The notes under the pieces: model-generated | What the model saw: only the letters and a program-made list of their open reading frames with translations | Told to the model about the DNA's origin: nothing | Databases searched by the model: none | Shown: piece by piece, positions 5,585 to 39,300 of the stretch | Numbering within the stretch: position 1 is the first letter of the stretch | How the letters are laid out: every line of letters begins with the position of its first letter | Position numbers and translations under genes: made by a program | Origin: Antedon mediterranea | Lineage: Eukaryota > Echinodermata > Crinoidea > Comatulida > Antedonidae | Direction: 5' to 3' | Length of the DNA: 64,000 nt | NCBI RefSeq assembly: GCF_964355755.1 | Contig: NC_092677.1 | Span: forward strand, 9,694,601-9,758,600

Positions 5585-11332
<5,748 letters not shown>

Positions 11333-12942: not shown

Positions 12943-13101
12943 AAGCTCTGTCTACACTATCAAACTAGTTTGACAAAAAGAATGTGATGTGCCCAAGTAT
13001 GGTAGTGATATACCAAAATATGGTAGTGATATGACATCGTGTCCATATATGGGCACATCACATTTTTTGTCACATAAAGTCTGATAGTGTAGACAGAGCT
13101 T
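12943..13101 (+). mobile_element. MITE family 1, copy 2
   Basis: Both terminal repeats are present (AAGCTCTGTCTACACTATC and inverse) with TA next to each end. The interior carries two tandem ATGGTAGTGATAT-type motifs and the CATATATGGGCACATCA segment. Confidence 0.85.
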
Positions 13102-13794: not shown

Positions 13795-15206
13795 TCAGGT
13801 GTTGTACACTTTATTATCATGATTCAAAATGCATAGAGCGTACGCGGAAGATGTCGTCACCACGGCATCTGGATGATCACCAGGTTGTCGTGGATAGTCT
13901 GCTGTAATTTCCTCTTTTATGGATGTGCTGTCGTCCGTATTTATTGATTCTAATGCCATACTTAAAGGCCGACTGAGAGGTGAAGCAGCGGACGTTGGTG
14001 TTAGCAAGGTACTAGTGGTATGAGAAGGAGACAACAGTGGCTCGTTCTCCTTCAGACTATCTGGAGATGTATCTGGAGAACGTTGTATTTCAGAGTCTAT
14101 ACCACGCCTTACTTGTAGTTCAATATCTCTTTCTGGCTGTGACATCGTTTTATTTGCTGACCCATTCTTATAACTAGGTGCACAACCATTTATTTCTGCT
14201 TGTACAATAAATTTATGTTTTTCTAAATTTGTTTCTTTTGCATAAGTTTTTATTTTATCTGCTTCCGTTATTCCTGCAGCAGGTATTACAATGAATAAAT
14301 TATCCAGTTCTTTTTTTGTGCATTCCTCATTATTGTTCAAATGAGAAGACAATGTTTTTGTAGCATCAGTGTTTGTATGTGGCATTCTCTTTGAATCGGT
14401 AACTGCTTGGTCGGTTTCTCGGTCGTACCGAACAGATGGCATATTGTCAGGATTAACGTCCGTTTCTGAAACTCCTTGTAATGTCTCATCCGGGACACCG
14501 ATTGTGTGGTCCACTTGCTCCAACCATTCTTGAACGGTCTTTTGGTAATCCGGTCTTCCATATGGTATCCCATCGACTGGTTTTGGGTATTGGCGCCGAT
14601 ACGATGATTTAGCTTCTGTTTCGCTACACTTAGACATCGGATTGACAGTTCTTCTGTACCGTCTGCAACACAAGGCAGTATTTGTGGCGGAACACGTGCC
14701 ATGGTGATCACATTGATCTGGGCAGAGCAACTTAATGGCAACGGACAGAGCGTAACTAAATATTGCCGCAAAAACGGTAATGAGGATAGTAGAAGCTGCC
14801 GGTGGAATATCATAAAAGAAGTGTTGGCTAGAAGTGTCATCATCAGATGTCTTGACCGTCGCTGGTGGTGAGGTTGTAACCACAGTAGTTACCTGTACAC
14901 TAACGCTAATGATGGTTGGTGCTGTAAAGAAATATAAACTGTTAATACTTTGACATCAAATAGATCCTTTGTTAAAACGACCTACTAATATTAGGTATAG
15001 TCCCGTGTTGAATTATTTATTATTATTTATTATATTTTTTTAATTAACAGTATCCTTCTTTCGTACATTAATGCAAGACACGGTCTTTCTTTCTTTCACC
15101 TACCTGCCCTAACTGTCCGGATCTGTAATAATAACATCGATAGGACAAAGCACAGTGTCCGTACAGTTAACTGATGTTTTAAGGATGGCACGGCGTTGTC
15201 TTGCAT
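13795..15206 (-). CDS. Unrecognised single-pass membrane protein, 409 aa, two coding exons
   Basis: Exon 1 runs 15206-15104 (donor GTAGGT) and exon 2 runs 14921-13795 (acceptor TTTACAG, stop TGA). I start at 15206 because this ATG joins in phase and gives a signal peptide: polar N-terminus, core LCFVLSMLLLQI, likely cleavage after TVRA (about residue 34). A short Ser/Thr-rich ectodomain follows (residues 35-75), then one membrane segment (about 76-98, STILITVFAAIFSYALSVAI), a Cys-rich juxtamembrane stretch (CPDQCDHHGTC...LCCRRYRR) and a polar tail of about 290 residues with no domain I know. The topology would be type I. An acceptor-like TTTTTTAG just above 15283 suggests a spliced 5' UTR. 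Candidate AATAAA on the minus strand at 13528-13523. No function is assigned. Confidence 0.7.
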
Positions 15207-18200
15207 CGATACACCAGACTTCTAATTGATATCTGCAGGTGCATCCTCTGCAGCACCGTAGCAAGTTATGACCACACTTGTATTCTAAAAAAAGTAAAAT
15301 TTAATTTGCATATAAAGGTGTATGAGAAAATAGCGATTTCTAGTGTGCCTGCATTTCGAGTTGACTTGCCTTGTATTGTTTGACTATGGACTTGACCATG
15401 GACCTATAAGTTATAGGTTTAATACAATGTAGGAATCAATTAATCGAATTTTATGAAGCTATAATATGATCTATATAATATTCTTCTATGAAAATAACCC
15501 TACAACGTGGAAAATTAGTTGGGGACTGCTATCGTGGAAATACGAAGGACTGTACATTTTTGTTGTTTAGACGAGTTGCCCATGATGAACAGGGTAAGTA
15601 AAGTTTATATTTGTAAAGCGACAACAGCCTATAGCAGACATTGTATTTTAAACTGTTATTCATATGAAACAGGACCTTCTTATATTATACATACTCAATA
15701 AATTAAATATGCCTATATAGACGCCAGTGTGTTGATGATGATTATGGATCGACAAATATGATTACCAATCTTTAATTATATCACGATGTCGTGTATTTAT
15801 TTGAATGCTTAGAGCATGGAGAAATGGGTACTAGCCTCCATGCTTAAATTGATTGACTTTTTAAAGTTAGTTCATGAAACTCGGTTTCATGAAAAGCCAG
15901 CAAATCACGGTACTTTTTTTCTATTCTTACCTGTTGGTCTAAGTTGGTTTACATCACATCTCAGAACTTAAATAATCGCAATGAATCGTTTATTACATAA
16001 TGTAGGCCTGTAACAAATCTCCATCAAATATTCGTAGGCCTAAAATTACAGGTACCCAATTCACAGCAGCGGTTCACCTAAGTTTGCATAGTTACTTTGT
16101 TTTGCCCTCTACTAAAACAGCTCCTTTGAGACGTAAATTAAATTTGCATGACAGTCGCAAGGGTCGAACCAAGAAGGCTTTTGTAATGTCTGTTAATCCT
16201 TGAAATACATGAAAGGATGTTTTGACAGTCTATTATGCAGTGAACATTCTGAATTGATTCCGTAAGTCCCATCACTATGGTATGAAAAGAGTATTGTAAA
16301 TAAGATAAGATAAGATAAGATAACTTTTATTGATCCTCAAAAAGGAAATTCATTATTAAATTATATTTACCGTGAATTTTTGTGGTCATACACGCCTCTT
16401 CATTCCAATTAAAGACCAGGATATTAATTATTATGCGGATCAACAAAAAGGTGCGGGCCGAACCGGCTCCCCTGTTAAAGATTATGAAAAGAAAACGAAA
16501 AGTTTTATCTGGAGGAAAACCCCTTAAAAAGTCCTGGTTATAGGCATACTTTCTACTATTTCTATTAAATATATGTTCGTTTTGGTCATCAACTAAAGTA
16601 TATTACTTTTGTAACTATTACCTCCAATTATGGACAATTTGAACATCATTATTATTATTACTACTATACTACATAACATCATTACATTACACGGACTTTA
16701 ACTGAAAGATGTCCCATCCTCCAACCAAGTGTACATAAGTGGGACCCCTCATGAAACGTCACAAAATAAACATAACTTTCCTCTCTGTCCGTCCGTCCGT
16801 CTGTCTGTTTGAAACCCTCAATATTTTGTCCGAGGGCATCCATATCAACATCAATATGTTTCTTGCGCTAATGTTATATAATATTCCTATTAAATTAGAT
16901 AAAGTCATCTTCCAAAAGAAATGCAAATGTATTTGTGAAGGAATAATTAATATTTGGTAACTCTTTTATATTTTTGAAGTATTGTGAAGGAATAATTAAT
17001 TTTTTTCACTATTATTAGGTCAATAATGTTTATTACGAATTAAAAGACGTTTACTATATAATTTCAATATAAAATTTAATGACAAAAAGAAAGATCGACG
17101 TTTCGGTACCATCATAGAACCATTTTCAAGATCAAGTGAATACAAAACAATAATAATTATGTGCACTAAGCACCAAAGTTGGTGACAGGAAATGCTAATT
17201 TGGGACTAATTAAGTAATTAGCTCCTCCTACTGAGTTAGATAAACAATTTAGCTTTGATGGAATCCGATTGAGTGTAGGTTTTATCTCTTTGATCCACAA
17301 CATCTCCTTAATTAGGCAATCAAACTTATTGTTACATTTAGATAAGACTCATAAAGTATTCTGAGATATCACCAGTTATGCCATGTTGTTTTAGGTGATC
17401 ACCTATAATAAATAAACATTTTTGTTTATTTTTCTAAAACATTTCTTGAGAAGAAAAATTACACATAACATATATAAAATAATTCATAAATATAATTTGT
17501 ATTGTTTTATTTTTATTTTCTTTATGTTCTCATACATAATATTTCCGCTTAATTTAACTAACAAACATATGTATATAAAGTTGATAACTTAACAATCATC
17601 ATTAGCTTAATTCAAATTAAGAAATTATCGCGATACTTTATCATAAATAACATATGGATATTTGTAACGAGATGATCATTTGTTTAAGTTTAAGTTATGG
17701 CCATACAATACAACCCTTCGTTTAGAGAACTACACTGTAAAAACGAGGGTGGAGCAATAAACGGTAAGTTTTACCACTATTGTCAATCCCTATTCAGGGG
17801 TCATTCCTATTAAGAGGATATTGTTAATTAGCCCAAAGTTATTCCTTTATAGGGGCAATTAGATATGTTTTTTAATGATTACCCATAACATACAATTTTA
17901 ACTTGTTCTTGGAATCAGTTTCTCCACATTATGATTGTAACATAACTGAATACCACATTTAAATTGATAACAATAAATTATTCCCATCCCATAATTGTAT
18001 CAAAGTAGTAAAAAACAATTTTCGTAGAAATTAAATGAATTAAAAAAAATAGCTATCTACTTACAAAGTATTTTACTGTATTATTATATTATTATTAATT
18101 TAAAATACAAGTAAATCTGGTAAATTATTGAAATTAAATTATCTGAACGAAAATGATGTTACAATTTAGCTGAGTTAAGCTGAAGCAATTTTTGCAGAAA

Positions 18201-18352
18201 TTAAATGAATTTGAAAAATTAACTATGTACATAAAACTGTACTGTATTTATATTTGTATAAACTTATTTAATAACTTAAAATACATACAGTAAATCTTAT
18301 GAATGATTGAAATTAAATTATCTGAATTTAGCAACACTCTAGTTGAGTTAAG
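15207..18352. other. Intergenic: no gene seen; repeat fragments
   Basis: It contains the probable 5' UTR and promoter side of the minus-strand membrane-protein gene, a GATAA microsatellite with a retroelement-like 3' end (16296-16350), a fragment near 17080-17130 (GACGTTTCGGTACCATCATA) resembling Penelope-type element ends, and the 3' UTR of the LUBAC-subunit gene. Short open frames at 15519-15701 and 16739-16960 have no recognisable content. Confidence 0.5.
16294..16352 (-). mobile_element. Probable 3' end of a non-LTR retroelement
   Basis: On the minus strand it reads GGATCAATAAAAGTTATC followed by repeated TTATC units. A conserved 3' stem ending in a short tandem repeat, as in some RTE-like LINEs, looks like this. 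Only the end is left. Confidence 0.4.
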
Positions 18353-21300
18353 CTAATGACAGTTCTGGCAATTTGGCCGACAAAGACGGCCATTTTCTCT
18401 ACAATGACATCCTCCTGATTTGTCTCCCCTGCCCTAAAAATAAAAATATAACATACAATTATCAATGCTGTTTGGAAGTTTTATATTTTTATTGATTTTT
18501 ATATACAGTACTTGTAATCTACACACAATTCAATTTTTATTGCAAAGAGTGCGAATTAAAAGCTATATAATAGAAGTAGAAGTTATTGTTGGTTAGTAAT
18601 TAGTGAACAATCTGTATGTTTTGGTAAAGAGAAAACAAATGTACTAAAGAGTGCACATGTCTTTTGTACAACTGGTTAAATATCAACCTGATAGGCTTGG
18701 CTCATTGGTAGTAAGAAAACCTGCATTGTCCCAACATTTTTCAAGAACATACATATGGTGTGCTACTTGGCCACTGACATATTAACTTAGCTATAATGAA
18801 TGCATAGTGTCCACTCACATTTGGACCCCATCTTGGTCCCTTAGTGACCCAGCATATTTCAGTCTTGCACATGGTACATCTCACCCAATCACAACCGTCC
18901 TTCTTCTGTACAATGATCTTACATTTTGGACAGTGCATGGCGTCTCCATTTCTAACCATTTCCTAAAAATCAAAACATACAATTTTAAATTTGATTTTTT
19001 TCATCAGTAATTTGATCTGTCTTGTACAGGGAAGTAGTGGAGGATCCAAAATGTTATAAAGAAGGAGCCCAGGCCCAACAATGGTACAATGACGTGATTA
19101 ACTAAACCTAATGTTCTATCTTCTGTATTGCAGATTTCAATATTTAGTGGGTCCCTGGCCAGCTTTTTTCCCTCTTTGGATCTGCCTATAGGAGATGACA
19201 CCAAGGAGTTGAACAAAAAATGTTTGGTAACAATAGCTACACTTACTACTATACTTTAACAATCATTTAGGAAAATGTAAACTCACACTGTACAAATAGT
19301 AATCATTGTATTTTTGTCAAGCACCATCATAGAAGGGAAGGGGGGGGGGGGGAGGAGCGGTGGTACACAAGCAGATACCATACCATGGTGTTATTGTAGG
19401 ATATCATGGACAGGTTTACATATTTGATTTCACTGTGTGGTTTGAATAGACCTCCCTCTCACTGTTTGATTTGAGCAGCAACTTGCAACTTACATCCAGC
19501 ATCAATTGTGTTTGCTTAGCTGCTTTATCATTCATAGCATTTATTTGCAACGAATCCTGATATTCTTTACAGTTCATTCCTTCGTGAATGGCTTTACACG
19601 TCAAACAGTTGCTCTTTCCGCAGATCGGGCAAGGGAAGAAGTTGACGTCGTCTTCGTATATGCACCAGCCATGACAGTCCACGGTCTTACAATGGAAACT
19701 GTTGCCTGCTTGAGTCTCGGCAGTTGCGAGGCAACGCTGCAGGTGTTTTTGATATTGCTCATTGTCAACAAGCTGAAAAAAGTAAGTAATTCTGTATCAT
19801 TCTAAGATCACACAGAATAATAATACACATGTCTTATATAAGTCAAAGATGCTCTTCAGGTGGATGCCATCCTCAAATCAGTAGTAGTAATTAATACAAT
19901 TGTTTGTTTTTTTTATTAATGTATACGTTTACTTGTTATGGCCCAGAGATCCCGAAATAAAAGATTAAATAAATAAATATATATCTGTTTCATTTGTATT
20001 TTTAATATTTCCACTTACTGCTCTGATTTCGCGGTCTTGGATTAAAGCTTCGCAAGAAAATTCATTGTCCTGAAATGGACACTTGATTTCAGGTTCTTCA
20101 CAGACAGAAATATGTCCTGTTAGACAGTCTCTAAAAATGTAATCAAATTAAACAATGAATAAAATAAATAAATTAATAGTTTGCCAGTCATTTCATTCAC
20201 TACTGTATATACATTTATTTATCACCCCTAATTTAGGAAATCTAAGTGGTCCTCCAACGCTGGAGGCCTCTGCCATTCTTAGCCATAGCCTCAAGGGCCT
20301 CATAAGCTCTGGGGCCCTGTGTTTAACCATGGAGTAATAATTATTACTCAATGATTTAACCATTGAGCGCTCATAACCATTATGCCACTGGTTGTTAATG
20401 ATAACTATAAGTGAATTCATTAATTATCCTTCTTGAAATTGTCAACCCTTTTCATAGAACAACTATTAATACAATATAGAGAGTACTCAACACATATAAA
20501 ATCTAGTCTTTGTGAGTGGAGTGGTTTTTCATGAGAAATGATTCCGAAATCCAACCGACTTTGAACCCAGGACATTGGGATCAAAACCAATCATATTAAC
20601 CACAAAACTTTTAACTTCTGTAATCTTACTTGCAAAACGAGTGTAGGCATTCCCGCAGAGTGATGCCTTCTCCAGCGTCAAAGTCATCGTAACATATCAA
20701 GCACGTAAAAGCTTCGTTATTTGGTATTACGTCCAACTGGTCGTATTCTTGCAGACGCTCAAAATTTAAGACAGCTGCCTGTCGATCGGCTTCCTTTATC
20801 TATTTTTCAAAATATTTTACATCAATATAAATTATTTTTTAAATCAAATTTCTGTCCCTTCAATCTCAAAATATACAGCAGACAAGATGATTTAATTTTA
20901 CATTAAAAAAACAGGCAAAAAAAAAATACACTATGTAAACTACACAATTTCATTTGCTTTTAAAGTTATTTTTTATTTTTGCTGTTTTGTTTTTGTCTAA
21001 TAAACTGCTTCATACAACAAACGCATAATCATGCACCGTATTACAATAATGTGGTATTTATATTATTATCTAATTTTACAACTACACTTTCAATGATTTT
21101 TTTTTTCTTAATGGAATGTTAATTCTCCCAAATTTGATAAAATATCAACAACTTAATCAAGTATCATTTATTATCATTTTAATATTAATATTTAATATTA
21201 ATATTTAATATTAATTTTACAGGAATAGAAGAAATTCTAACCCATGGGCAGATCCACCTTAAATTTCGCAAAATCGTAATGCAAAAGACAGGACATCAAA

Positions 21301-24300
21301 TTAAGCCCAGCCCTTCATTTGACTATTTTTAGGCCCTGGATCCACCACTGTAACCCACCTAGTTATATAGAAAGTATATACAGTATTATATAGGGCATAG
21401 AAAAAGACCGAGATGCATGCTACAGGTTGGACATTAAAAGCCGGGTACAAATTTGTCATTCTAAGCATGTTACATTACTATTACTGCACTGTATAACAAA
21501 CTCTCAAACAAAAAGTTTAAAGAACGTTTTATTTATAATAATATTAACCGATACATAACTTTACAATAATGTTATTTATACAACATACACTAAATGATCT
21601 GGCAAAAAAAGTACCGCTTGTTGTAAACCTAATTTTAGATTAATGATGACACAAAATAAATAAAAACTGCAGCCCCATAAAGCTGTAACACCTTATCGAC
21701 TCATTTACGAAATATATACATGCGCAATTTGTAATTTCTCTAACTTTGCTGTAATATAGTTTTGTTTCACTTTTGTGTTACTTTTTTAAAACTTGTTGTC
21801 AATATTTTTATTTAAAAGTTATTTTCTTCCTCTTGGAACGATATAAGTGGTTGAGGTTCAAACACCAGCCCGTCTCCTCCTCCCACTAGTAACCCAGACC
21901 CTTGCAGATCATCCTAAAAATAAAAAAATAATTTAGTTCTAATTTTGAAATTTGTATTTTATTTAGTTTTGATATTAGAGGATAAAGGGTGTAGGAGGAG
22001 GACGGACTGAGCATTTAAACCAACTAGAAGAGAAGAAACACCTAAATTTGAGCTTACTCTTTATTACCAGAAAGTTACTTCAATAGTTCTCAGCAATTTG
22101 ATAAATAGCTTTAGCAATTCATCGAAGTTTGACACAAAGCGCGCAGTAAGCTGAATAGTGATACTTTGTTAGCCGGTTTGAGATCCTCTACTAAAGAATG
22201 ATCTTACAATTTTGACCATAAAGATATTTTAATTTTTTAGGCACTTACCTGTTTTATAACATCTTCATGTTGTTTTTCTTCTTCTATTAGCCGTTTCTCT
22301 ACCGCATCCAACTCGTACGAACCAATCGGCGGTAGCACATAGTTATCCGGTCTCGGGTTTGTACACATGTGACAGCTTGGTCTACGAGGAGCATTTACCA
22401 TCGTACAGACTTCACAGTGCCAGCCGACCTGACAAGAGAAAGTTACATTACTAGAGATGTGTCAATGTATGTAATATTGTTAATGTAAGTACAAGTAGAA
22501 AGAGTGCCCTCGATAAATTCCATTTTGTCAGACACTATAGGCTGGATATACTGTACAGTGTACTCCACAGTCAGTAATGGCGATATTCCAAGAACGATAG
22601 TTAGATCATGCGTATATGGAGGTAATGATGCAGGTATATATACTATCATTTTGAATAAGAGAGAGGATGGCCATTGAAATAATGAGATAGATTTGAAAGA
22701 CCTTCCAAATAGTACTTACATCCAATGCAGATTTCTTCCCTAAAGCAGAGGGCAAGACTGGCTCTTTATTTTGCATAACATCTCTGACAACTTTCTGAAC
22801 ATTTTCAAAGGGAACATGTTGTCTGCGTGGTTGAAAACCAGGCCTGGGAGCAGGCTTAGGCCGAACACTAGCCAAACTAGAAGCAACTTGTATTGAATCA
22901 TCTATCAAGTTTTCGGCTACTTCTGTGTAAGAAAAATATAGTAATTTTATAATATTCTACACAATAGTTGTTGAGACATCCATAAGAAAAAGTTGAGAGC
23001 AATTTATTCATTTTCCAATTCTTATTCATTAAATACTAACCAGGATTTTGAATAGCGTTTCTTGGTGCTTCTTCTTTTTGTGTTAAATAAAGAAAGACCA
23101 TGTATCCTGATTGGTCAATGCTTAACGCTTGTAACGTTTCATCATCCCTCACAATTCGATGGCCCACAATCCATCTTTGAACTTCTGGTGGAAAATTGTA
23201 ATCTGTATGCATCTGTAAAAAAAATAGTACAGTAGTTAGAGAGAGATTGTCAATGGAAGATATTGCTGTTATCTATGTATGCACCACATAGGTGCTTGAT
23301 ACCCGTAAACTGTTGATTTACAGTAGCTGCACTTGGGTAGTTGAGTGGTTTGGTGGTTTGCCTCCAATCCCAAGGTCCAGTGTCCAATACTAGGGTTTTA
23401 ACTTTATGGCTACAAACACAAATGTGTTTATTCATCACATTATATAACCAACTGTTTCTACTCCACTCACTAAACATCAAATTAGACTTTATTTTATAAA
23501 CATTATACAGTTTATCCATGTTGTAACTGGTATAATGTGTATGAAATAAAAAATGGGACAGAGGTAAAGTAATTAAACTAGTTGATTACTTTACTACTAT
23601 GGGTTGATATATCTATTTCTTTATACAGCCTATTGACTACTAAGTGACTGTTTGTTTTGTTTGTTTCTACCATTCACCCTCAGTTGATGAAATTCAAATT
23701 AAGATTCTCCACCGACCCACTGCATAAATAGTGTCCGTCAACAATGAGCAACAGGGGCTAAGTAGTAAGATGGAACAGGGATAATACTCTTCTGAAAGAT
23801 GCTTGGGTTCTTTATTAATTTATAGTGCATACGAGCCAGACATGTACTCTGAAGTTTTAAGTTCACTTGAACAACCAGAACCATTAAACCATACTGTTTA
23901 TATTTTTTATTTTACTGTGCTTTTTGTACAATGTGTTTTTGTTTATGTTGTCAATTTGATATAGGCCTATATATTATTTCTGCAACTCTTTGTGCTGCTA
24001 TAGTCATAATATTTGTTTTAATTTATTTATGTTGAAATATATATACTTGCCTTTTCTTTTAATGACTTAATTGATATTGATGGCTTAACCTTCAAAGTTA
24101 TTTTTATTGATGATTTAAAACGATCTTCAACTGAAATCCTAAGACTGAAAAAAGAAGCAATTGGAAGTGGATGTTTAACATTAATATCAATAAAGTAAAT
24201 TGTATTATGGCCTGCCTGTATGTTTTTTTTTTCCTTTTTCCATGTTGGTGAAGTGCTTTTCTTTATTCACGATCTGCACATTTTGATCAGGATGTGATTT

Positions 24301-27300
24301 TGTTTAAGAGTATTAAAGAGTTCTGTTTGATTCAGAATTCAAACTAAAGCTCTGTCTACACTATCAAAAAAAGTGTTATGTGCCCAAATGTAGAATTGAT
24401 ATGCCCAAATATGGTAGTGATATGACATCAGCACATCCATATAGGCACTTCACATTTTGTTGTCACATACAATTTGATAGTGTAGTCAGAGCCTATTGTA
24501 CTTGTTTTATGAGGAACAACTTTTCTTCACAAATATCCAATTTATGGGAATTTAACATTGAAAAAGGTTAGTAAACTAACTTGATCCTATTATCAGTCTT
24601 TGTGATGTTTGTTGTATTTGCAGATTGGCTAACAGCTAAACAAGCCTTTTCTTGTGCTAGTCTCTTTGCAATTTCTCCAGCCTTTTGTTGATCACCTTCA
24701 TTAATGCTGACCATCAATTCCTTTGCAAGAGAGTCTGTAACATTTAAAGAAAGAAATTCATTAAAAAAAAATTAGGGTTGATAAAGCATTGATCCTTAAA
24801 CAAGGAACCAGTTATTAAAATCTACTGTAGGGACCACTGACTTATTTACTGTTACCATACAAAGGCAATGAAAAGTCATAATACAAATTGGTCAGTTTAA
24901 CATATCTATTCTGGATTATTTACCCACAGCATTGTCATTTTTTTTCAGTAATTTGCCTTTTGATTTATAAAAATATTAATGTTTTAAATTAAAATATTAA
25001 GAATTTTCTTTATTTTGTGGCGAAAAAAAATCTCTAAACTATTCAACTAGAGTAGGAAATTAAAGTTACACAGTATAATATTTTTTCATACCTAATAGTT
25101 CGCCTTTCCCCGATGACGAGTCTCCACCACTGATGTGCCGCTGTGCAGCCATCTCGACGTGACTCCTCTCAAAAGCTATAAATAAGGTTGTAGTAATCAG
25201 ATTTAATGTACAATCATTAAATTACAGTACATTAGAGTAGAATTCCTATTAAGGGGACACCTTTGGGACCTATCAAACTTTCCTTTTAAAAGGTGGGTGT
25301 CCCCTGTATAGGGTCGTAGTATTTGACCGAGAATAATCCCATGCCCAAGTATAATCCCACCCCTAATCACTATGTCTCTATGTCCTACAAACTTTAGGTT
25401 TATTGGGTAAATCTATGCAATCCACCCAAATATAATCCCACCCAAAGTTCATATCCAGGCCCCCTGGGACTATATTCGGTCATGTACAGTTTGTGCTCTA
25501 CAGTAATGAACATGAACAGAATCATACAATGTACACAGTAGGCCAATTTTAGTATTAACAATTACGGTATAAATCAGGATAATACTGTATTAACATAATT
25601 GATACAATACTATGATATGAACTGCAACTACCTCTTAAATAAAATTGGACAAACCTGAATTTAAAATACTAAAAACTTTTGGACACCAGGGTTGAATTTA
25701 CTTAACAAAACTCAACATAACTGTGAATCCTTCACTGTCTTTCAACCAAATGCTATGATTAGAATCGATATACAAATTTACATTGTTGGAAATTCCCTAT
25801 TTTAATTCTGGACTTTCCCTTCAAAGTAACTGAATATGTTATTAGCATAACAATGAGAATGCCCCACCAGTATTCGATTGCTAAGAATCAATCAATTTCT
25901 TTTGTGCTGTTATGATATGAAATATATTTCCTTCCTGGTATGTCTGACATAATTTTACTATAAAAATGGGTTGAATTTGTCAAATGACTTGATACCACAC
26001 ATGACATTTTGCAATTTGGTGACTAAGTTTTATTCCAGTCTCATGACAGGAACTAAATTGGGCAGGATATACGTAGGGAATCACCTACTCTTCAAAAATG
26101 CTATTGTGTATTTAACTATTTAAAAGTCCTTTTGAATAAATTGTAACATTCATGCAGATATAACTTATTTCAAGTTAGCCCAAGAGAGATTCAGAATTTA
26201 GAAAACAAGGGGAAGATATGTTGTACAGTAACTCCCTAACCCTAAACTCACTTCAACCTGTAATGTGATATACAATGAGGGTTCATAGATCATATGTAAC
26301 TAAAAGTTAAAGATGCATTGTCCCGCTGAAAAAATAGCTTAAAAAATAATTTGTTGAATATGTCATTTCAATATCAAATAATAGTTATCCACTAAGACTA
26401 AAATTGGATATAAACAAAATTATTTACCTGCAAATATAGTCAAATTGTCTACCAGCCAATGGGTTTTTGGTTGAATTTAACCATATATTTTTTCATTTTA
26501 TAAGTGAAAACATTTTTTGTTAAAGTGATTAAATTTATTAAAACTACAAAATAAGCTATTAAAAATCTGATTTAATTAATCTTCATTTTTCATATTTTTG
26601 GGGGACAATACATCTTGCTATGCTCTACCTGATTTCCTCTGTTCATGCGTCGCATTGCCAAGCAATGTTCCAAAGTTTGAGGCGTCCGTAACTTTCTCAT
26701 ATTCCATTTGATATTGCTTCTTATCAGGTAATATAAATTCATGAACGGAGCCACTAACCACCTTGAAACTTAGGCTAGACATGGGTGAGTAAAGAAGTAC
26801 CTGAAATGCAATATTCATTTTATTCTATCTGAATTATTTCAAAATTTACGATATTTTTTTCCAAGATGAAAAACAATGATTTAAATCACCACGAATACCA
26901 GTCTATGGTTATTGAAAATAAAATAAATAAAATCTTTGTAAATAAAAGATTTACAATTTAGCATACAAGGATCACGTTATTGCATTATTATGCTAGACAC
27001 GCTGCCACACAGGTGTAGTGGCAGGTGACCGAGTAGGCGCGGGCATGATTTGAAACTGTCATATCTTATTGGCTGAAGTGTTGCAGGCATGTCTCTGCTC
27101 CCTCTCTATTTTTTAATGCTTTAATACTAATTGGAGTAAACACAATTACTATTATTATAACAATTACATTTTTTAAAACTGTACTAACACTTTTGTCATG
27201 TACTGCTTTCAGTACAAAGCCTTTTGATACATCTAGAAACTGTAATACACATGGTGCAATTCGGATCCACCCTTTTGCATCATGATTAAGATAAAGCACA

Positions 27301-27350
27301 CCAGGAGCAGATCCGAGAACACTATATTCTTCATCAAGCATTGTAAAAGT
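18353..27350 (-). CDS. RBCK1: SHARPIN/HOIL-1 pro-orthologue: PH-like, UBL, NZF and RBR E3 ligase (LUBAC subunit), 672 aa
   Basis: Coding exons on the minus strand: 27341-27168 (exon from 27350), 26800-26629, 25175-25092, 24734-24581, 24144-24051, 23212-23041, 22922-22720, 22428-22249, 20799-20630, 20130-20019, 19772-19494, 18962-18819, 18433-18353 (TAG). All phases agree: 673 codons. Residues 1-115 match the SHARPIN PH-like fold ([20 protein letters not shown]). About 142-190 is the LUBAC-tethering helix region, 196-275 the UBL ([13 protein letters not shown]), 352-380 the NZF (WHCEVC...CHMC), 444-470 RING1 ([15 protein letters not shown]), 530-575 the IBR, 607-672 RING2. Cys622 in [10 protein letters not shown] corresponds to HOIL-1 catalytic Cys460. 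In vertebrates HOIL-1 and SHARPIN bind HOIP through their UBLs to form the linear-ubiquitin ligase; HOIL-1 makes ester-linked ubiquitin. The 24051 junction uses a GC donor. The ATG at 27341 is the first in its exon; further 5' UTR exons are likely. Confidence 0.9.
19030..19195. mobile_element. Degraded MITE with GTGGAGGATCC-type ends (probable)
   Basis: One end reads AGTGGAGGATCCAAAATG and the other GGATCTGCCTATAG in inverse sense, resembling the CAGTGGCGGATCCAG family (intact copy 54917-55034). It lies in the intron between RING2 exon 18962-18819 and exon 19772-19494. Confidence 0.35.
20225..20400 (-). mobile_element. Possible tRNA-derived SINE fragment
   Basis: The minus strand reads GTGGCATAATGGTTATGAGC and then ATGGTTAAATC, loosely like A and B boxes, followed by a body without similarity to the other SINEs here. 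It lies in the intron between exons 20799-20630 and 20130-20019. An open frame across it is not a gene. Confidence 0.3.
20515..20612 (-). mobile_element. Possible tRNA-like SINE head
   Basis: The minus strand has TTTGTGGTTAATATGATTGG (A-box-like) and, about 30 bp on, TGGGTTCAAAGTC (B-box-like). The body is short or lost. It sits 18 bp past the RING1-exon donor. Confidence 0.35.
21181..21216. repeat. AATATT-rich short tandem repeat
   Basis: A 12-bp palindromic unit (AATATTAATATT) is repeated about three times. Confidence 0.7.
21243..21350 (-). mobile_element. CAGTGG-type MITE copy
   Basis: On the minus strand it begins CAGTGGTGGATCCAGGGCC and ends GGTGGATCTGCCC, the same ends as 54917-55034, with a shared interior (CTTAATTTGATG, TTGCATTACGATTT). 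It lies downstream of the alternative last exon, within the long intron of the full-length transcript. Confidence 0.6.
21812..21913 (-). CDS. Alternative last coding exon giving a SHARPIN-like PH-UBL-NZF isoform (444 aa)
   Basis: It lies between the NZF exon (22428-22249) and the RING1 exon (20799-20630). A strong acceptor (TTATTTTTAG) precedes 21913, and the reading frame continues in phase 0 from the NZF exon for 33 codons ([20 protein letters not shown] then an acidic end) to TAA at 21814-21812. AATAAA overlaps the stop (minus strand 21812-21807). I saw no usable donor in it. With the eight upstream exons it would encode 444 aa: PH-like, tethering region, UBL and NZF, without RBR. That is the domain order of SHARPIN. 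Whether it is used in cells cannot be told from sequence; it could also be a poison exon. Confidence 0.6.
   Translation of the reverse strand, partial: DDLQGSGLLVGGGDGLVFEPQPLISFQEEENNF
23319..23551 (+). mobile_element. tRNA-derived SINE, family 1, copy b
   Basis: Same body and tail as 7772-7981 (AAACATCAAATTAGACTTTA, GTGTATGAAATAAA), with a 28-bp insertion in the middle and eroded box B. It lies in the intron between UBL exons 24144-24051 and 23212-23041. Confidence 0.65.
24347..24494 (+). mobile_element. MITE family 1, copy 3
   Basis: Left end AAGCTCTGTCTACACTATC, right end GATAGTGTAGTCAGAGCC, with the standard core. It lies in the intron between exons 24734-24581 and 24144-24051. Confidence 0.8.
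26307..26615. mobile_element. TTAA-MITE family 2, copy b, abutting a splice donor
   Basis: Left end TTAAAGATGCATTGTCCCGC, right end GGGGGACAATACATCT, with the standard 300-bp body. On the minus strand the donor of the second PH exon (exon end 26629) lies only 13 bases from the element, so the intron starts almost inside it. Confidence 0.75.
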
Positions 27351-29008
27351 CTGAGAGAATAAAAATGAAATTATGATTAGCAATGCATATTGAATATAAA
27401 AAGATATAGTCGAAGTCGTGTTCAAATGGAAAAGTTAAAATATGAGTTTGTAGAAAAGTAATAATTTAAAAAAATTAGGAACATACTGTATAAATGTAAA
27501 TATTTGTCAACTTTAACTCGACTTCACCATACAAATAAATTGACGTTTAAACAATTTATGTACTTGAAGTTTACTGTTCTACCAAGGTATAATATCAGAA
27601 ATGCATTACAATTATCGGCCAAAGAATATGAGACTCTGAACTGAATATAAATTAATGGACGGGTTCGTTTATATTATAAACATCCCGTGTTGTAGCTACA
27701 TATTTACCCACCAGAGCAGAATGTCTGATCTAACTAATACACTGATCTACTACTGATCTCCACTGGCACTGTATATCTAGGCCTGCTTATACTCGTATAT
27801 AATGTATAGGTAAAACAGTAGATAAAATAGGAAGGAAGGAAAAACCATTTGGTAGCTAGTCCAACCAACCAACTGACAGAAACAAGTGGCTACAGAACAG
27901 TACAGATAATAGAATAGTTAGTTAGAATTAGAGTAGAAGGAAGACACACACATGATGAAAATACAAAAAGTAAATTACAATTATTAGACGAGTCTGCTAC
28001 ACATAAATTGGACTAGCCTACATATAAAGTCTGTGTAGTCGAATATGTTATCAGAATCAAGGGAGGTTACCTAAAAAAAGTAGTAGTGTCATCAAACGTA
28101 AACAAAAAATAGAGTATGGATTTTCCCCATTTTTAATTTATGTACTTTGTGTGTGGCACGTGACCTGATGACTCTTCGTAATTATTTATAGAGGGGGTTG
28201 TTTACATAGACTTACCTTATTCTCAAATAGTATTTTAATCAAACTTCCCATAATTTTATCAATTTGAATAATAAAAAATATATAATGAATTACATAATTA
28301 ACTTTCTTTTAGTTAAAATTATTATACTTTATGTTACTTTATATATATAATTATAAAATACTTATATATGGCAATAGATTTATGTGAAATAATCGTTTAA
28401 AAATGGACTTCAAAACTAAGGTAAATGTCAACATTTCAGCTGTAATTTTCCAAAACGTAAAAGCTTTTTTTTCTTGGGAAAGTTTAGAAAATAGTCGTGT
28501 TTATGCATAAGTTATCAACGGATTTCCGTAGTTTTAATTAGATCAACACAAACCGAAAAATCTTATGTAAGGTTTGAGTCGTTTTACTTGTATTTTCAAG
28601 AAAGTCTATACATTTTTGTTGTATATTTTTACCAGGCTCGTAGGCCAGTCAACAAGGTCGTTTCCTGGTATTTGTCCCTCGGTTCTCCCGCACACAAAGA
28701 GGCTTTTGATTCGATGGCGCTTGTTATGCTCTGGTTGTCTCAACAACAAAAGGACAGCTTAGCTTCAAGTTTATTTAAACAAAACAATTCTGAAATGGTG
28801 TATAGTTGTTTTTCAACAATATCGAACATTGTCATTAGTAATTTTTGTTAATATTAAATTCCACACAATTTTTCTGTAAAGAATTTGAACGAAATTTAAT
28901 CGAAAATAATCTGAATTTACTGTATGTGTATAAAAACATAATAAATTCACGGTGAGTTAGTGATCCAACAACTAAATACAGATAAAAAGAAGAGAGAGAA
29001 GAATCAAG
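27351..29008. promoter_or_regulatory. Divergent promoter region between the LUBAC-subunit gene (-) and MAF1 (+)
   Basis: The two coding starts (27341 minus, 29009 plus) are 1.67 kb apart and point away from each other, so both promoters and any 5' UTR exons must lie here. I saw no strong TATA or GC-rich core. An ATG-less open frame at 28588-28851 (containing ARRPVNKVVSWYLSLGSPAH) follows an acceptor-like TTTTTACCAG; it could be 5' UTR of MAF1 or chance. Confidence 0.55.
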
Positions 29009-32000
29009 ATGAAGCTTTTAGACAATTCAAAACTTGAAGCAATCAGTGAAGCATTGACAGTGGAGACTGGTGATTGTAAAATTTCTGGAAAGTATGTACA
29101 TTTCTGTATTCTATAAATTTCTTAATAATACAATAATCAATTATATATTTTTAACCTTAAAACTACAGTCAGTATATTGAGTAACCTAATTTGTAATTCC
29201 ATTTCCATCTATACTATTTTTCTTCCTTTGGCATTGTACACTGTTGCAGTGACAATACTGAATGCCTATCCATCATAATGTAAATTTTTAAAGCTAAATT
29301 TAAGTTTTTATTATAAAGAATTGTTATTAAATATTATAAATTTGATATAATTAGAAATATGAATTTCTTAATTGAAGTATTTTTAATTTTGCAGAGTGGA
29401 AAGCTATTCCTGTAAGATGGCCGGTAACGATAAGCGTTTATACAAGATGATAAGCAGTGAGAACGGTCAGTCACCAAACGATTTGCAGGCGTTGTCACCT
29501 CCTCAGTCAGGCTTTCATCTCGGCCCAGGTCAAATTTTAAGCACCAGCAGTAGCAGCGGAGGAGAGGAAACAGGCCCACTGTGTCACACCTGTAGTCGTA
29601 GAATGATATACTACCTCATAGCAACGCTAAATGCTTCCTTTCATCCCGACTATGATTTCAGGTGTGTTGCTGTGCCTACTGGTATAATTTTTTGTGTTAA
29701 AATTGGAATGTCGTTTGTATAACTTTAATAGTTTGCATTGTGCTAAACACTAAATTCTGGAAATGTATAAAATAAATAAATTCTTGTATCACCTTTAGCA
29801 AAGGTGATACAAGAATGTTGGTGATACAACTTCAATTATCACTTTCTGATCGGTTTAACCATAGAGATATTATATAGCACTATAATATCTCTATGGTTTA
29901 ATCATAGAGATATTATATAGCACTATATCTCTATGGTTTAATCATAGAGATATTATATAGCACTATATCTCTATGGTTTAATCATAGAGATATTATATAG
30001 CACTATAATATCTCTATGGTTTAATCATAGATATATTATATAGCACTATAATATCTCTATGGTTTAATCATAGAGATATTATATAGCACTATATCTCTAT
30101 GGTTTAATCATAGAGATATTATATAGCACTATATCTCTATGGTTTAATCATAGAGATATTATATAGCACTATAATATCTCTATGGTTTAATCATAGAGAT
30201 ATTATATAGCACTATAATATCTCTATGGTTTAATTTTGAAACGATTGTTTTCATAGTATAAAATAGAAAATGAAAAATTTGATTTTTTTTATCTAGTGAT
30301 GCGAAAAGCAGTGAATTCAGCAAAGAGCCAAGCTCAAACTGGATAATGAATGCAGTTGACAGTAATCTATATTCTGTCCTTGGTGATATGTATGCTGGGC
30401 TTAAAACCAAGCTATGGTCTGCCATTAATGATGAGATTGTTCTCAATGAATGCGAGATATACAGGTAATTATTGTTTATTAAGGTTAAAGTGGTTAACAA
30501 GAAAATAAAAAAAAAATTTAAGAGGAAACCGCAGAACATTTTCTTTGCAATATATTTTCACCTACAGTATCACCCACCCTACAGAAGGATTGAAAAGCCT
30601 CTATATAATAACCAAACAGTACTGTAAAACCATGGACCTATAAATTTATAGGTACATGGTAAAACAATCTTCCTACCCACACCCATACTCTTCACAATAC
30701 ATAATATTCAAATTAACAACTTTATTAATTATGAATGCCATAGACATTTAAAATCTATTGTATGATGTTCACACTTGTCAATTTTAGATAAAGAAATAAT
30801 TGTAAAGTACAACTCAACTCAATCATTTTTAAGTTTTCTATATTATAGTGTTTTGATTCTGGGTTGTCATGAATTATATTTAACTAATTTTGACTTTTTT
30901 TCTTGCATGTTTAGTTACAACACAGATCTTGAATCGGATCCATTTGGTGAAGAGGGTGTTCTCTGGTCGTTTAATTACTTCTTCTACAACAAGAAGCTGA
31001 AGCGGATTTTATTTGTTACATGTAGAGCCACCAGGTATCCATTTTAATACCCATTGTGTTTTGTGTCCATTGTTGTGTGTAAACTTCCATTTGTGTTGCT
31101 TAACTTTGATATTTAATAGATGCTTTGTTGTTTTGGTCCTGTATTTTAAAACAACAATGACCATAGTACATTTATAGGATAGTCGATTTAATTTTAACTA
31201 ACTAAATTATTTATTTTTAATTATTTACTGCTAGTCAAAGTTCTTACTGCAACTAGCCGTTGTCCCTATATTTATTTCCTTTGTTTTATATGCTTGTACA
31301 TGTTAGCTTAATGAAAGAATGTAATAGAATTTTAAAATTTATTTTTGAGTCTGAATAAAAAATAAAATATGCCTACTAAAACTTCAATATAATGCAGAAA
31401 TATTATTGTATTGTACACAAATTCATTAATTCAATAATAATAATAATAATGGCCGTTTATATGCATAAGATATATAATATATGTATAGTTAAACAACTTG
31501 GGACAACGGTGTTATTGTAAATAGTGCAAATATAATCTTAGCATAGTATATTTTAGTAATGACTTGATGGTAAATTGTCTGTACTGTACATGATACTTCT
31601 CCATACGACTGGCACCTTGGCGAGGTGGAGAAGCTTGTGAATCTCAATGATCTGTAGAGCTATGCCGGCGGTAGCCTAGCAAGCTACTGGTAGGGTCACC
31701 CATGCCGGACAGGTCGCACAGTTAGAGGTCAGACAAAGTCCAGTCTTAAGAGGTCTTCACAAAATGATCTGTAGAGCTGTGTTGGGACTACTGTAGCTTT
31801 AAGTAAGGTACTGGGGTCACCCATGTGAGATTGGTTTTTTTTCTAAAGCTCTGTCTACACTATCAAACTAGACAAAAAAGTGTGATGTGCCTAAATATGG
31901 TATTGATATTGCCATACTGTACATGGTAGTGATACATCATGTTCATATGTATGGGCACATAACATTTTTCACATCTAATTTTATAGTGTAGACAAGGCTT

Positions 32001-32610: not shown

Positions 32611-34053
32611 TATGGATTACAGCAAACAGCAGTGAGCTACCAATAAGGACACTTCACTCAAATTGTCAGAAATTAGATGGAATGAAGAAATTACGTTTAA
32701 AATAGGTTTTAAAACCTACCTGTATTTATTTTTGTAAATCAGCTATATGTATTATACAGTAGATTTTAATAGCATTTAAGCAAGAATATGGTTCAAAACT
32801 GAAAAGAACTGTTTAAACAAAAATAGTGATAGTGATTGTTTCTGATTCTGAACTTGAAACTGGCCTAAAGAAAGGCCTATTTTGACCAAACAATGAGTGT
32901 GATGTGCCCAAATATGGTAGTGATATGGTCAAATATGGTAGTGATATGGTCAAATATGGTAGTGATCTGACATCATCATTTCCATATATGAGCACATCAT
33001 ATTTTTTTGTCCCATAAAGTTTGATAACGTAGACAGAGCTTGACTAACAATTGCAGTGTAGATATTATATATCACCATGCAATATATTGCTTATCAGGCT
33101 TTTAAACTAAGTATTTATTAACTGTTGTGTTAACTATTGTGAATGCTATATACATTTGTAATATTTCATTACAATCTTAAAAGCTTCAGCATTTTACACT
33201 ACAATACACTTGTACATACTGCATCCAGTTGTAAGTTTGTATTTATTGGCATTGGGTTGCCCACACATTGCTTATAAGTTATAATGGCCTAGTTGGCCAA
33301 AATTTGTTTACGGTTGTTAGATATTCAGAAACTTATGTACATATTGTAAATAAGACAGTATGAAATTGTGACAGGTATGTTAGAATAAGTTTATATCTTG
33401 GTGTTGTATGCCATTCTGTTTTGCGCCAGAATTATTTTAAAAAGGTTGATTTTTGCTTCCGAAGTCTATGAATGTATGGCTACTAGTTGTGAATGTACAA
33501 AACTGTATGTATTACTGCCTTTTTAGTGCAATAATGCATGGTTCTGCTTTACAAGTAATAGCACTGCAATAGTTCTAATGTTTGGGGGAGGTTTCGACTT
33601 CACCCCACTCGTGCACATTTTATTATTGTTGTGCTATAGTACATTACCGTAGGGTACAACATTGATGTGACAGTCAAATTAAAGTAAATGAGTTTTTTTA
33701 CAAGACATTACTATACTAACAAGTTTTAAAAGTTGACTAGTTTTATAGTTTTACTTGCATTTTATTTAGATATAGCACATGCTAATAAATTTGAATTTTT
33801 TATGCTGAATAAAATGTTTCTCATCACCAAAAATAAGGTAGTTATTGGTTTATTGAGGTAAACGCAATTAATTGTACACAATATATGCTAATAAAGCACA
33901 GAAAAGGTCTAATGAAATTGTTGTGTGCTATACTAGCTGGTTGCAAAACAAATTAATATACTGCCCTCTATCATCATTATGTATTTTTTACGCTCGAGAT
34001 TCATCGTGTCTGGCACACTTCGCTAAAAAATTCACATAATTTACTTGAAAAAG
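32611..34053. other. MAF1 3' UTR and MAF1-TMEM70 spacer
   Basis: The stretch after the MAF1 stop has candidate AATAAA at 33808-33813, which would make a 1.2-kb 3' UTR that includes MITE family 1 copy 5. The TMEM70 start follows at 34054. No other gene is visible. Confidence 0.5.
32881..33041 (+). mobile_element. MITE family 1, copy 5, left end lost, internal motif tripled
   Basis: The right terminus is intact (TTTGATAACGTAGACAGAGCTT). The internal unit ATGGTAGTGATATGGTCAAAT is present three times in tandem. It probably falls in the MAF1 3' UTR. Confidence 0.75.
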
Positions 34054-35244
34054 ATGATAAATATTTGTCAGTCATCCTTTCGTAGGTCAATTCCAATTAT
34101 GTCTGCCGCCTTGCTGCGTTTTGGCTGTATAAAAAAAGTAAGTACTGCACTATTATATGTTGTATTGTGCCTAGGTAGGGCCCTAGCTAGGCTAGCCCTC
34201 GTCGCTCAGGCTGTTCATGATACAGTCAGTGTGTCAAAATGAGTCCGACACCGCAGGAGATTGCCAATACATACACATTGATTGATATGCCTAGGGCCTA
34301 GATCATATGGATAATACTACTGTCAGTGTCATTGAGTGGGTTCTGTTTGTTTTGTGAGGCTTTCTTTCCTTTCAAATGTAAACGTTAAAATTGATTAAAT
34401 ATTAAAATAATATATTATAGGCCTAAATAATGCCAGAGCAGAGGGATGTCATAATTAATATGATAATAAAACCCTAGTAGGCCTACACTACCTGCCTCTC
34501 TTTATCTCTACTATCTAATTGATTGATAATTGATCTGTTATTACTAATAAGAACGTCATATTAATAATAATAAACTGTCATGTTTGTTTTTTACAGAATA
34601 TATCTATTGCTTCAGTAAGAAAGTTTAATACAATTCACCGAAAAATCGTTAATCAACCATTCGTAGTGATACAAAATGGTCAACAGATCATCCGTCCAAT
34701 CAGCACAAGTTACCGTTGCTCATGCATACCAATGTCTGAACGTGAACTTAAGCAAGGAGCCCAAATCTATGATGGCCAAATTACAAAACGAGTTAGATTT
34801 GTCAAGTTTTTCTCGATTTCAACAAGCCTTTGCAGCTTAGCAATTTTTCCAACGCTGTTACTAAATGACGACACTGGAGGATTTGGAATTCTCGGTTTAG
34901 TCGCAGGATCAGTGGCCTCTGTTATGTTCTTCACGCCTCTTTTCTTGCACTACTTTACAAAAAGATATGTAACGAGAATGTATTTGAACTACGATACCGA
35001 TATTTACACGGCGTACACGATCAATTTTATTTTACAGGACGTTAAGCATGTATTTCACCAGAAGGACATTCTCGTACCTAGTGTGGCAAATATATTCACA
35101 ACGTTTAAAGCAAACGGTAGATCATTTATGGTGGATGTTGAAAGTTTTAGTAATCCAAATGACTATGCTCATTTAATGGGGTATGATAAAATGCCAATTA
35201 CTATTCAAGACATCTCAGATGAAATCAATGATAAAGAAAAATAA
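34054..35244 (+). CDS. TMEM70: TMEM70 homologue, mitochondrial ATP-synthase assembly factor, 243 aa
   Basis: Two exons: 34054-34137 (donor AAA|GTAAGT) and 34597-35244 (acceptor TTTTACAG, stop TAA), joined in phase 0, 244 codons. The N-terminus (MINICQSSFRRSIPIMSAAL) is basic and hydroxylated, as expected of a mitochondrial targeting sequence. The TMEM70 core shows two membrane segments (about 97-117 and 123-146) joined by a short Asn/Asp/Gly turn, then the family signature LLHYFTKRYVTRMYL-like text, DTDIYTAYT, VFHQKDILVP, IFTTFKANGR and a C-terminal LMGYDKMP. The first of these reads FLHYFTKRYVTRMYL here. TMEM70 sits in the inner membrane and helps incorporate subunit c into complex V. AATAAA lies at 35354-35359. 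Confidence 0.92.
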
Positions 35245-36364: not shown

Positions 36365-39300
36365 ATGAACAACGAAAAAGCAAAGCATCACAAAAACAAT
36401 AGCTTGAATGACAATGAAGAAGAAACCACAAAACTCATTCATGGGAGGCGGTTTTCCTTGCAAATTCCTTTTGCGGAACTTTGTGTACTAGAATTTAGCT
36501 CCGGCATTAAAAAGGAAACAAAAGAATGGGTATTGAACAAGCTTGCTCTACTGCCGAGCCAAAATGGTGCTGGGGTAAACGTTCGAGTAACACAGACCGA
36601 AAAGAAGAAAGACATTATAGTCTACGTAGGCGTCACAAAAGAACGAATGCTTGAAGGAGCTGAGAAAGCGTGCTTAAAGAAAAGATGTAAAGATGGCACT
36701 CTTGCGGACTTCACAATCAAACACAAGGATCAATTCGACCAAGAAGGTAAGAATTGTGTCGGGTCGTTCCAATAACATAATCGCTCGAGCATAAGACTAA
36801 CCCATTGACCACTAAATTTTGTCATGATAAGGGACTGAACTGCTTTGATTATGTGTGAAAAAAAAGGTATGCCTTATCTGCTATATTGGGAGATGCCACA
36901 AACTTTGTGCGCAGAATCTCCTTCAATGCCTTCTTAATAACACAAGCTGTCTTATCGGTTGACAATTTCAACAAAAGATTATTAAAGCATAAAAACAACG
37001 CCGTGGTTAGGATTCCGGCACCGGAACTCAACTGCCCAGCGTTAGGGATTCCGACACGCTATTGCGCATGCCCAGAGCGAGGTAATCGGCGACTCTATAC
37101 TTACCAACAGCGATGGATTATTTCATAGCTGCGCCACACGGCGAACTAGCCTAGATGCCTTCTAATATGGGATCCACTATTCTAGGCTAGGGCTACCAGT
37201 TAGACTACGTGACCAGTGGGCCTATAGTATTTATTTTGTAATTAAAAAGTGGTTGCTTCATTCATATATAAAATTCATATCATTATGAATTATATAATTA
37301 CATGACTAGTTTTATGATTTTTCATAACGCATTATACTGTACATATACAACATGCAATCACAAGTTGATTTGTTGACGGCAGCCACCGCGTGGATGTGAA
37401 AAAACTGTTCGGGAAGTCAGTGTCGCAACGCTAAAAACAGCATTACGATTCTTATTCATTAGATAGATACTGATACTTATTAATATCATTATAATTATTT
37501 TAACGCGTGGCGTAGTCATATTTTAATTATTAATTCATGTATGGCATAGGCCAAGTTTCATCCATCGCTCTCTCGCTCGCGCAACGACTATCTAGGCTAC
37601 AGTAAATCCCTATAACACTCCGACTCTCCGTGGTGTGGCACTATTATTAGTGCAAGCTATAATTCACTTCCCAGAGCTCTGGGCATGCGCAATAGCGTGT
37701 CGGATTCCTTAACGGTGGGCAGTTGAGTTCCGGTGCCGGAATCCTAACCACAGCGTAAAAACAAATTGCTAAAATTTAATGTATAAAACATTTTTTTTAT
37801 TAATAAAATAGTATTCTCTTTAAAAAACAGCAAGTGGTAATTCAAATATGATAATAAAATATTTTATGTTTAATTTATTATAATAAGTTTGTTTTCTCAT
37901 TGGCAGAAGCTGAATTTCTAAGTACGGCAGAACAGCAGAGAATAATAAGTTACATCATCTGCAACCTGGTGTCACATGATGATGAGGTCATACCAGGAAC
38001 GAAAGAGAAAGTGTACAGGTCTGAGAAAACCAGTGAGTTCAGGAACACCCTAAAGCTCTGTATAAAACTAGCAAAAAATGTTATGTTCCTAAATATGGTC
38101 GTGATATGCCAAAATATGAAGTGATATGCCCAAATATGGTAGTGATATGCCCAAATGTGGTAGTGATATGACATCACCTCCATATATCATGGGCACATCA
38201 CATTTTGTTGTCACATAAAGTTTGATAGTGTAGACAAGGCTTTAGAGTTTCTTTCTACAACTGAATTGTTGTACATATATAGTTGACTTCTAGGATTTAA
38301 ATTAGGTAAAAATTCCCAACTTGAAAATAATGAAAATGAAATATTTGAATATCTTGAAAAACATGGTACTATTTTTGCTTATAATGCATCAACCATATAG
38401 TGTGAGATTTACAACCTTTGGCACATTTGTCGGCCATTTTCCAGAGAGAAAATTTTCTTTTTCACCTCATCTCAATGTTTCGACCTTTCACAAAAAGTGG
38501 AAGTATGAAATGTCTGAGTAAAAACTTTATTATCGGGATAGTTAGGAGGTCTGATGTGATTGTGATTTTTATAGTGTACATTTGGGTAAACCACTAATTC
38601 AGATGAATTAATCCAAGGTTACTCAGTGAAGAGCTTAAAGAAATTTCTTACAGGAAGTGACCTGCTGACCTTTTAGATTCTTTATTTGATATCAAACTTT
38701 GATATTGTGTTTTTTGTTGCATTTTTCAGTTATCAAGTGTATGAGTTTAGGAATTGTAAGCCGACTGTACCCATTACATCAGCTGGGTGAACTAGATGAA
38801 CTCAGTCAAGCATGGTATCAAAGTTTAAAGAATATCGTCAAACAACCACATGGTAAATTGCGTCAATTGCGCCCTCTACATTACATTTTTTTTTAGCAAA
38901 GATCATACAAAAATCTGTGACACGCTATGTACAATTATTAATATTGATTGATAGATAATCTGTTCTTAGTTTTTTTCAATTTAAAAAAATTGTTATCACA
39001 GATATGATTCGTCGCTACTTTGGAGAGACAGTTGCAATATACTTCAAGTTCCTTGGCTTCTACACGAGAATGCTCGTATTTCCTGCCGTCTTCGGCATCA
39101 TTTACTACTTCTTTGGAGGTCAAAGACGGGCCAGCCACAGTTACGGACTCTTTGCCATATTCAACCTCGTCTGGACCACATGTTTTCTAGAGATATGGAA
39201 ACGTAAAAGTGCAGAAACAGCATTTCGTTGGGGCACGTATGGGATGGTTAAGTTTGAGGAAGCCCGTCCTTCATACACCGGTGAGGTCTGGATCAACCCG

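Follow-up and report, generated by a model that had tools for sequence, protein, structure and literature searches.

The HOIL-1/SHARPIN gene of Antedon mediterranea, a comatulid crinoid (feather star), probably has two alternative 3' ends. Directly behind its NZF exon lies an open frame of 33 codons which, on the sequence, we take with a probability of about 0.6 to be a genuine alternative last exon; its short product would be a ligase-less accessory subunit of LUBAC, and the gene would stand for vertebrate HOIL-1 and SHARPIN together. Splicing of the NZF exon to 21913, with a transcript end near 21510, would yield a protein that keeps PH, LTM, UBL and NZF, breaks off midway through the NZF-RING1 helix and ends in a 33-residue tail instead of the RBR ligase; skipping of the 33-codon exon would yield the ligase form. 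Transcription, translation and all functions of the short form we infer from the phase, signals and domains described below. Positions are those of the window, the whole stretch of 64,000 nucleotides that was analysed, and the features of the gene are as follows, each with the evidence that defines it.

27189 to 27341, minus strand: coding exon 1, start codon and first part of PH (donor of the NCBI model; donor 27168 would add 7 residues)
26629 to 26800, minus strand: exon 2, second part of PH (exon translation, NCBI model, structure model)
25092 to 25175, minus strand: exon 3 (exon translation, NCBI model)
24581 to 24734, minus strand: exon 4, LTM, the LUBAC-tethering motif (Pfam, genome LTM match)
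24051 to 24144, minus strand: exon 5, first part of UBL, GC-AG donor (Pfam, donor check)
23041 to 23212, minus strand: exon 6, second part of UBL (Pfam)
22720 to 22922, minus strand: exon 7, linker with a NAGNAG acceptor; in the NCBI X2 form it begins 3 nt later (NCBI model)
22249 to 22428, minus strand: exon 8, NZF with the N-terminal half of the NZF-RING1 helix; its donor, CAG/GTAAGT, is in phase 0 (Pfam, structure model)
21812 to 21913, minus strand: 33 codons followed by TAA, proposed as an alternative last exon (acceptor, frame, coding score, copy number)
21807 to 21812, minus strand: AATAAA sharing one base with the stop, poor downstream element (poly(A) signal scoring)
21528 to 21533, minus strand: AATAAA with the top downstream score of 29, probably the better candidate for the short form's poly(A) signal (ad hoc score)
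20630 to 20799, minus strand: exon 9, C-terminal half of the helix, then part of RING1 (Pfam)
20019 to 20130, minus strand: exon 10, end of RING1 (Pfam)
19494 to 19772, minus strand: exon 11, IBR (PDB-chain matches)
18819 to 18962, minus strand: exon 12, RING2 (PDB-chain matches)
18353 to 18433, minus strand: exon 13, end of RING2 and stop (PDB-chain matches)

The nearest match of the exon translation is an NCBI Antedon mediterranea model of 664 aa (98% over 93% of the query). By eye, only two splice choices set them apart: the NCBI model ends exon 1 at donor 27189 and takes the later side of the NAGNAG acceptor of exon 7. With this donor and the later side of the NAGNAG the isoforms come to about 664-665 aa (long) and 436-437 aa (short), which replaces the 672 and 444 aa first proposed. 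The NAGNAG acceptor, at 22920-22925 on the minus strand, adds or removes one Glu, absent from the NCBI X2 protein. Exon 5 ends in a GC-AG intron boundary, AAG/GCAAGT, that agrees with the NCBI protein.

The proposed exon lies in intron 8, on the minus strand at 21913-21812, and its 33 codons and TAA continue the frame of the NZF exon (22428-22249) in phase 0, as the original prediction had stated and as translation bears out. Splicing past it, from the NZF exon to 20799-20630, is also in phase 0 and leads to the RBR protein, so that the predicted effect of skipping holds as well. Acceptor, in-phase frame and stop are thus all present. The acceptor, aattatttttttatttttag/G, had been called strong, and is: in a small model built from the gene's 12 known acceptors it scores 8.2, above all of these (-0.3 to 7.6), and ranks first of the 319 intronic AGs tested, a set that begins 40 bases into each intron and omits the true acceptors. 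Across both strands of the window, five AGs in 6509 score at least as high, 21913 itself included. Both this test and the coding test with the gene's own exons placed the end of exon 1 at 27186 and not at 27189, a shift that affects nothing but intron 1 and the codons of exon 1. The matching phase and the place right after exon 8 also speak against a nested same-strand transcript that owns the 33 codons and makes no join to the NZF exon. Nothing direct favours such a transcript beyond the point that phase and position are all that link the exon to the HOIL-1/SHARPIN gene, and we consider it very improbable.

A frame of this length is common in itself: in-phase frames of at least 33 codons follow 31 of the 319 intronic AGs. 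An acceptor-like tract with a random open frame, decayed or accidental, could therefore lie here and be spliced in never or only as noise. Against this reading stands, besides the best acceptor tested in the gene, the codon content. In the model from the gene's own exons, the 33 codons score above every one of the overlapping stop-free intronic windows (540/540 sense, 493/493 antisense) and none of the 1035 windows in a second null set reaches them. An independent model of 2608 codons, trained on two related helicase-RBR open frames elsewhere in the Antedon mediterranea genome, puts them near the median of true exons (55% of 58 true windows score no higher), and their score is matched by 7 of the 1035 null windows, at 2 of 81 places. 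These two models place the 33 codons beyond nearly all null windows. The smallest model, whose 423 codons come from portions of three further genes of the window, does not separate the 33 codons clearly from the null windows, 213 of 1035 being as high, a point on the side of chance; pooled with the 2608-codon source it leaves 6/1035, and all three sources together leave 4/1035. The two helicase-RBR frames lie on one contig, span 1264 and 1344 codons within the fetched stretches, and by eye begin like a DEAH helicase and end like an RBR.

We found one copy of the 33-codon stretch in the genome, with a search that skips very common words, and for that reason rejected a repeat or transposon origin. 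Compared with the whole window, 21500-21950 matched, apart from its own place, only stretches of 15-30 bases (E 0.023 or weaker), and Rfam over 17000-29000 gave no match. Protein searches speak weakly against the exon: no protein with the 33-residue tail was found among 5.8 billion proteins (nine candidates, all with E above 1), which also suits a chance frame, and the listed cluster representatives (two matches) include no short isoform. These absences weigh little, as the protein cluster of the NCBI model shows only ncbi and uniref as sources and one contig, and gives its three members as a group. Acceptor, codon score and single copy together make a chance open frame unlikely and the exon a credible candidate.

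The AATAAA overlapping the stop was correctly predicted: it begins at 21812 and shares one base with the TAA. Its downstream region, scored by an ad hoc count of GU- and U-rich triplets that reflects consensus only, reaches a score of 4 (G+T 0.30). By the same count the AATAAA at 21533, 279 nt past the stop, scores 14 (G+T 0.68), the best of 29 in 17000-27341; the runner-up, at 20977, scores 13. Because its downstream element is better, a poly(A) site near 21510 is likelier for the short form than one at 21780-21800, where the original prediction had put it.

A different fate for the same exon would be that of a poison cassette, in which a weak donor joins the stop-containing exon to exon 9, and dosage is tuned as nonsense-mediated decay removes the mRNA. 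A donor model built from the gene's 11 GT donors (range 1.1 to 8.6) gives a best score of 1.97 within 21913-21500, at 21745, which lies within the real range, and a further donor at 21359 scores 2.75. The donors before 21500 are nevertheless weak, and a poison cassette needs neither a codon-like score nor the poly(A) context at 21533. Because the donors after the exon are weak, we do not favour this explanation and hold it to be improbable.

The full-length crinoid protein has the order PH-LTM-UBL-NZF-RBR. Pfam found the LTM, UBL, NZF and RING/IBR parts, NZF and IBR slightly under their cut-offs, and HOIL-1 chains in the PDB match UBL, NZF and RBR in order, in agreement with the alignment. The LTM (PF25393) matches with E 1.4e-4 and 22.1 bits, short of the curated cut-off of 27.5. 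At the N-terminus, Pfam Sharpin_PH gave no match to the crinoid protein at E<=1. Profile comparison with hhalign matched the crinoid N-terminus to a profile of two hemichordate Sharpin_PH sequences and one from amphioxus (E 3.4e-5, probability 72%). The match was weaker to a mixed profile that also contained vertebrates (E 6.7e-4, 27%), against which three shuffles gave E 0.26-0.88, and vertebrates alone gave no match (E 0.12). The N-termini of three starfish matched neither the crinoid one (E 0.29) nor vertebrates (E 0.34), and gave E 0.012 against the mixed profile. AlphaFold predicts seven strands and a helix here, with pLDDT 92-97 over residues 11-100; the overall pTM of 0.33 makes single domains of the model usable and their arrangement not. 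Superposed on the predicted domain, the SHARPIN PH crystal structure 4emo_D reaches a TM of 0.77 relative to the target, with rmsd 3.0 and 19% identity; domains of the EVH1 and Ran-binding type, which share the superfold, do as well or better. The model thus supports a PH-superfold domain at the crinoid N-terminus. It also predicts a helix at residues 385-424 that crosses the junction of exons 8 and 9 at about residue 403, so use of the 33-codon exon would cut the NZF-RING1 helix. The end of exon 8 corresponds approximately to human HOIL-1 residue 248, by hand count on the alignment with a 5-residue tag assumed.

A single locus in place of the two vertebrate genes, as had been proposed, agrees with the genome and the tree. 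The Antedon mediterranea assembly (18 contigs, 354 Mb) gave one RBCK1-like locus, to which 13 of 15 matches belong (the remaining two are the helicase-RBR frames), and one LTM match at E<=1, under the cut-off; a far-diverged second gene could escape these searches. A search with the NZF-RBR region retrieved 635 proteins at E<=1e-20, and no mammalian row is among the best 120 of the 635. Sharpin_PH matches 34 of 48 aligned relatives, which is no frequency because the rows were hand-chosen, most of them for carrying PF16764. Among the matches listed, bird, lizard and frog proteins that bear the name sharpin combine Sharpin_PH with the full NZF-RBR region; a swan "sharpin" matches PH (1.5e-30), LTM, NZF and RING/IBR. 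Three aligned sharpins of the bird, frog and lizard type keep KKDGCDW or KKGGCDW in RING2. Amphioxus and hemichordate proteins likewise have both PH and RBR. These proteins share the architecture of the full-length crinoid protein, whose N-terminus differs in being missed by the Pfam Sharpin_PH model.

A quick tree of 35 rows, hand-chosen from the best 120 of 635 and rooted at the midpoint, joins the vertebrate PH-bearing proteins in one group (support 99) adjoined by the PH-less RBCK1 of Polypterus, Callorhinchus and Petromyzon, and on this root amphioxus, hemichordates and echinoderms fall outside the vertebrate HOIL-1 and SHARPIN proteins. The RBCK1 rows that lack PH fail to group as a single clade, and the two crinoids are drawn apart from the other echinoderms. 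Because the tree places vertebrate HOIL-1 and SHARPIN together and apart from the crinoid gene, that gene most likely predates their split. Given this and the sharpins with both PH and RBR, the lack of an RBR in mammalian SHARPIN would be a later loss, on a comparison made up of rows other than mammalian ones.

The original prediction was that loss of the RBR turns a HOIL-1-type into a SHARPIN-type protein, which fits mammalian SHARPIN but not the sharpins of the other vertebrates compared here. The short form would have the PH superfold, LTM, UBL and NZF, in keeping with mammalian SHARPIN, which passages of PMC9084887 describe with PH, UBL and NZF and passages of PMC6044281 with an LTM. The sharpins of birds, lizards and frogs, however, carry PH and RBR, so RBR loss finds no support as the mark of a SHARPIN-type protein, and since their architecture is also that of the full-length crinoid protein, the latter is already SHARPIN-type in this wider sense. 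The passages drawn from PMC6044281, PMC5090701, PMC9084887, PMC12778051 (which uses RNF31 of the echinoderm Acanthaster planci) and the papers named below contain no statement that non-mammalian sharpin keeps an RBR; with the literature covered limited to these, we claim no priority for the observation. Mammalian SHARPIN has the domain order of the proposed crinoid short isoform and is encoded by its own gene, in contrast to the one RBCK1-like locus and one LTM match of the crinoid genome.

A C-terminally truncated splice form of HOIL-1 is not in itself new. According to passages of PMC6044281, mouse HOIL-N is a HOIL-1 splice form of about 30 kDa that lacks the C-terminus and occurs in small amount in fibroblasts, both wild type and from the older HOIL-1L knock-out. 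The same passages report that HOIP and SHARPIN are barely detectable in null cells without HOIL-N, unlike in the older knock-out, and that null cells given a HOIL-1L fragment, 1-140, had raised levels of both, from which the authors conclude that functional LUBAC may be formed with HOIL-N (PMC6044281). In passages of PMC8245127, PMC10511788, PMC4659944, PMC6341214, PMC9590148 and PMC6966713, RBCK2 occurs in the reference lists. The crinoid short form may credibly be seen as a variant of this known isoform: both would be splice forms, in the same gene family, with the N-terminal UBL part. Reportedly, in papers of 1998 and 2008 on RBCK2, HOIL-N/RBCK2 lacks the RBR and has a short unique tail after the NZF. 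The two differ in that mammalian HOIL-1 is not known to have a PH domain, and in that the crinoid form is a prediction from sequence.

If it behaves like mouse HOIL-N, the short form would still bind HOIP through its UBL and a partner through its LTM. Because it would keep the parts corresponding to HOIL-N and to HOIL-1L 1-140, we expect it to serve as a scaffold, stabilising LUBAC without HOIL-1 ligase activity, and it could lower that activity per complex. Mammalian LUBAC has two LTM-bearing accessory subunits, and an animal with one gene must use either a homodimer or two forms. If the short form is real, a ligase-less isoform is a way for a single-gene LUBAC to keep the scaffold without this ligase activity, and splicing in an invertebrate offers a counterpart to mammalian SHARPIN's lack of an RBR. 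It is a much bolder step, and a doubtful one, to suppose that one crinoid gene supplies both LTM partners by 3'-end choice, the ligase and ligase-less forms being paired through their LTMs, and that mammals reached the same state by gene duplication, with HOIL-1 losing its PH and SHARPIN its RBR. Pairing of the long and short isoforms, rather than a homodimer, is speculative.

Elsewhere in the window, the minus strand has a 386-codon open frame at 13795-14955, with no Pfam match at E<=0.001, and the plus strand has coding stretches of a TMEM70-family protein (34534-35241), an anoctamin (38959-39579) and Maf1 (29387-29719). A 21-bp tandem unit (like CAAATATGGTAGTGATATGCC) forms short arrays at 10904-10952, 12984-13032, 24371-24424, 32909-32966, 38091-38170 and 43347-43481, one of which sits inside an intron of the HOIL-1/SHARPIN gene.
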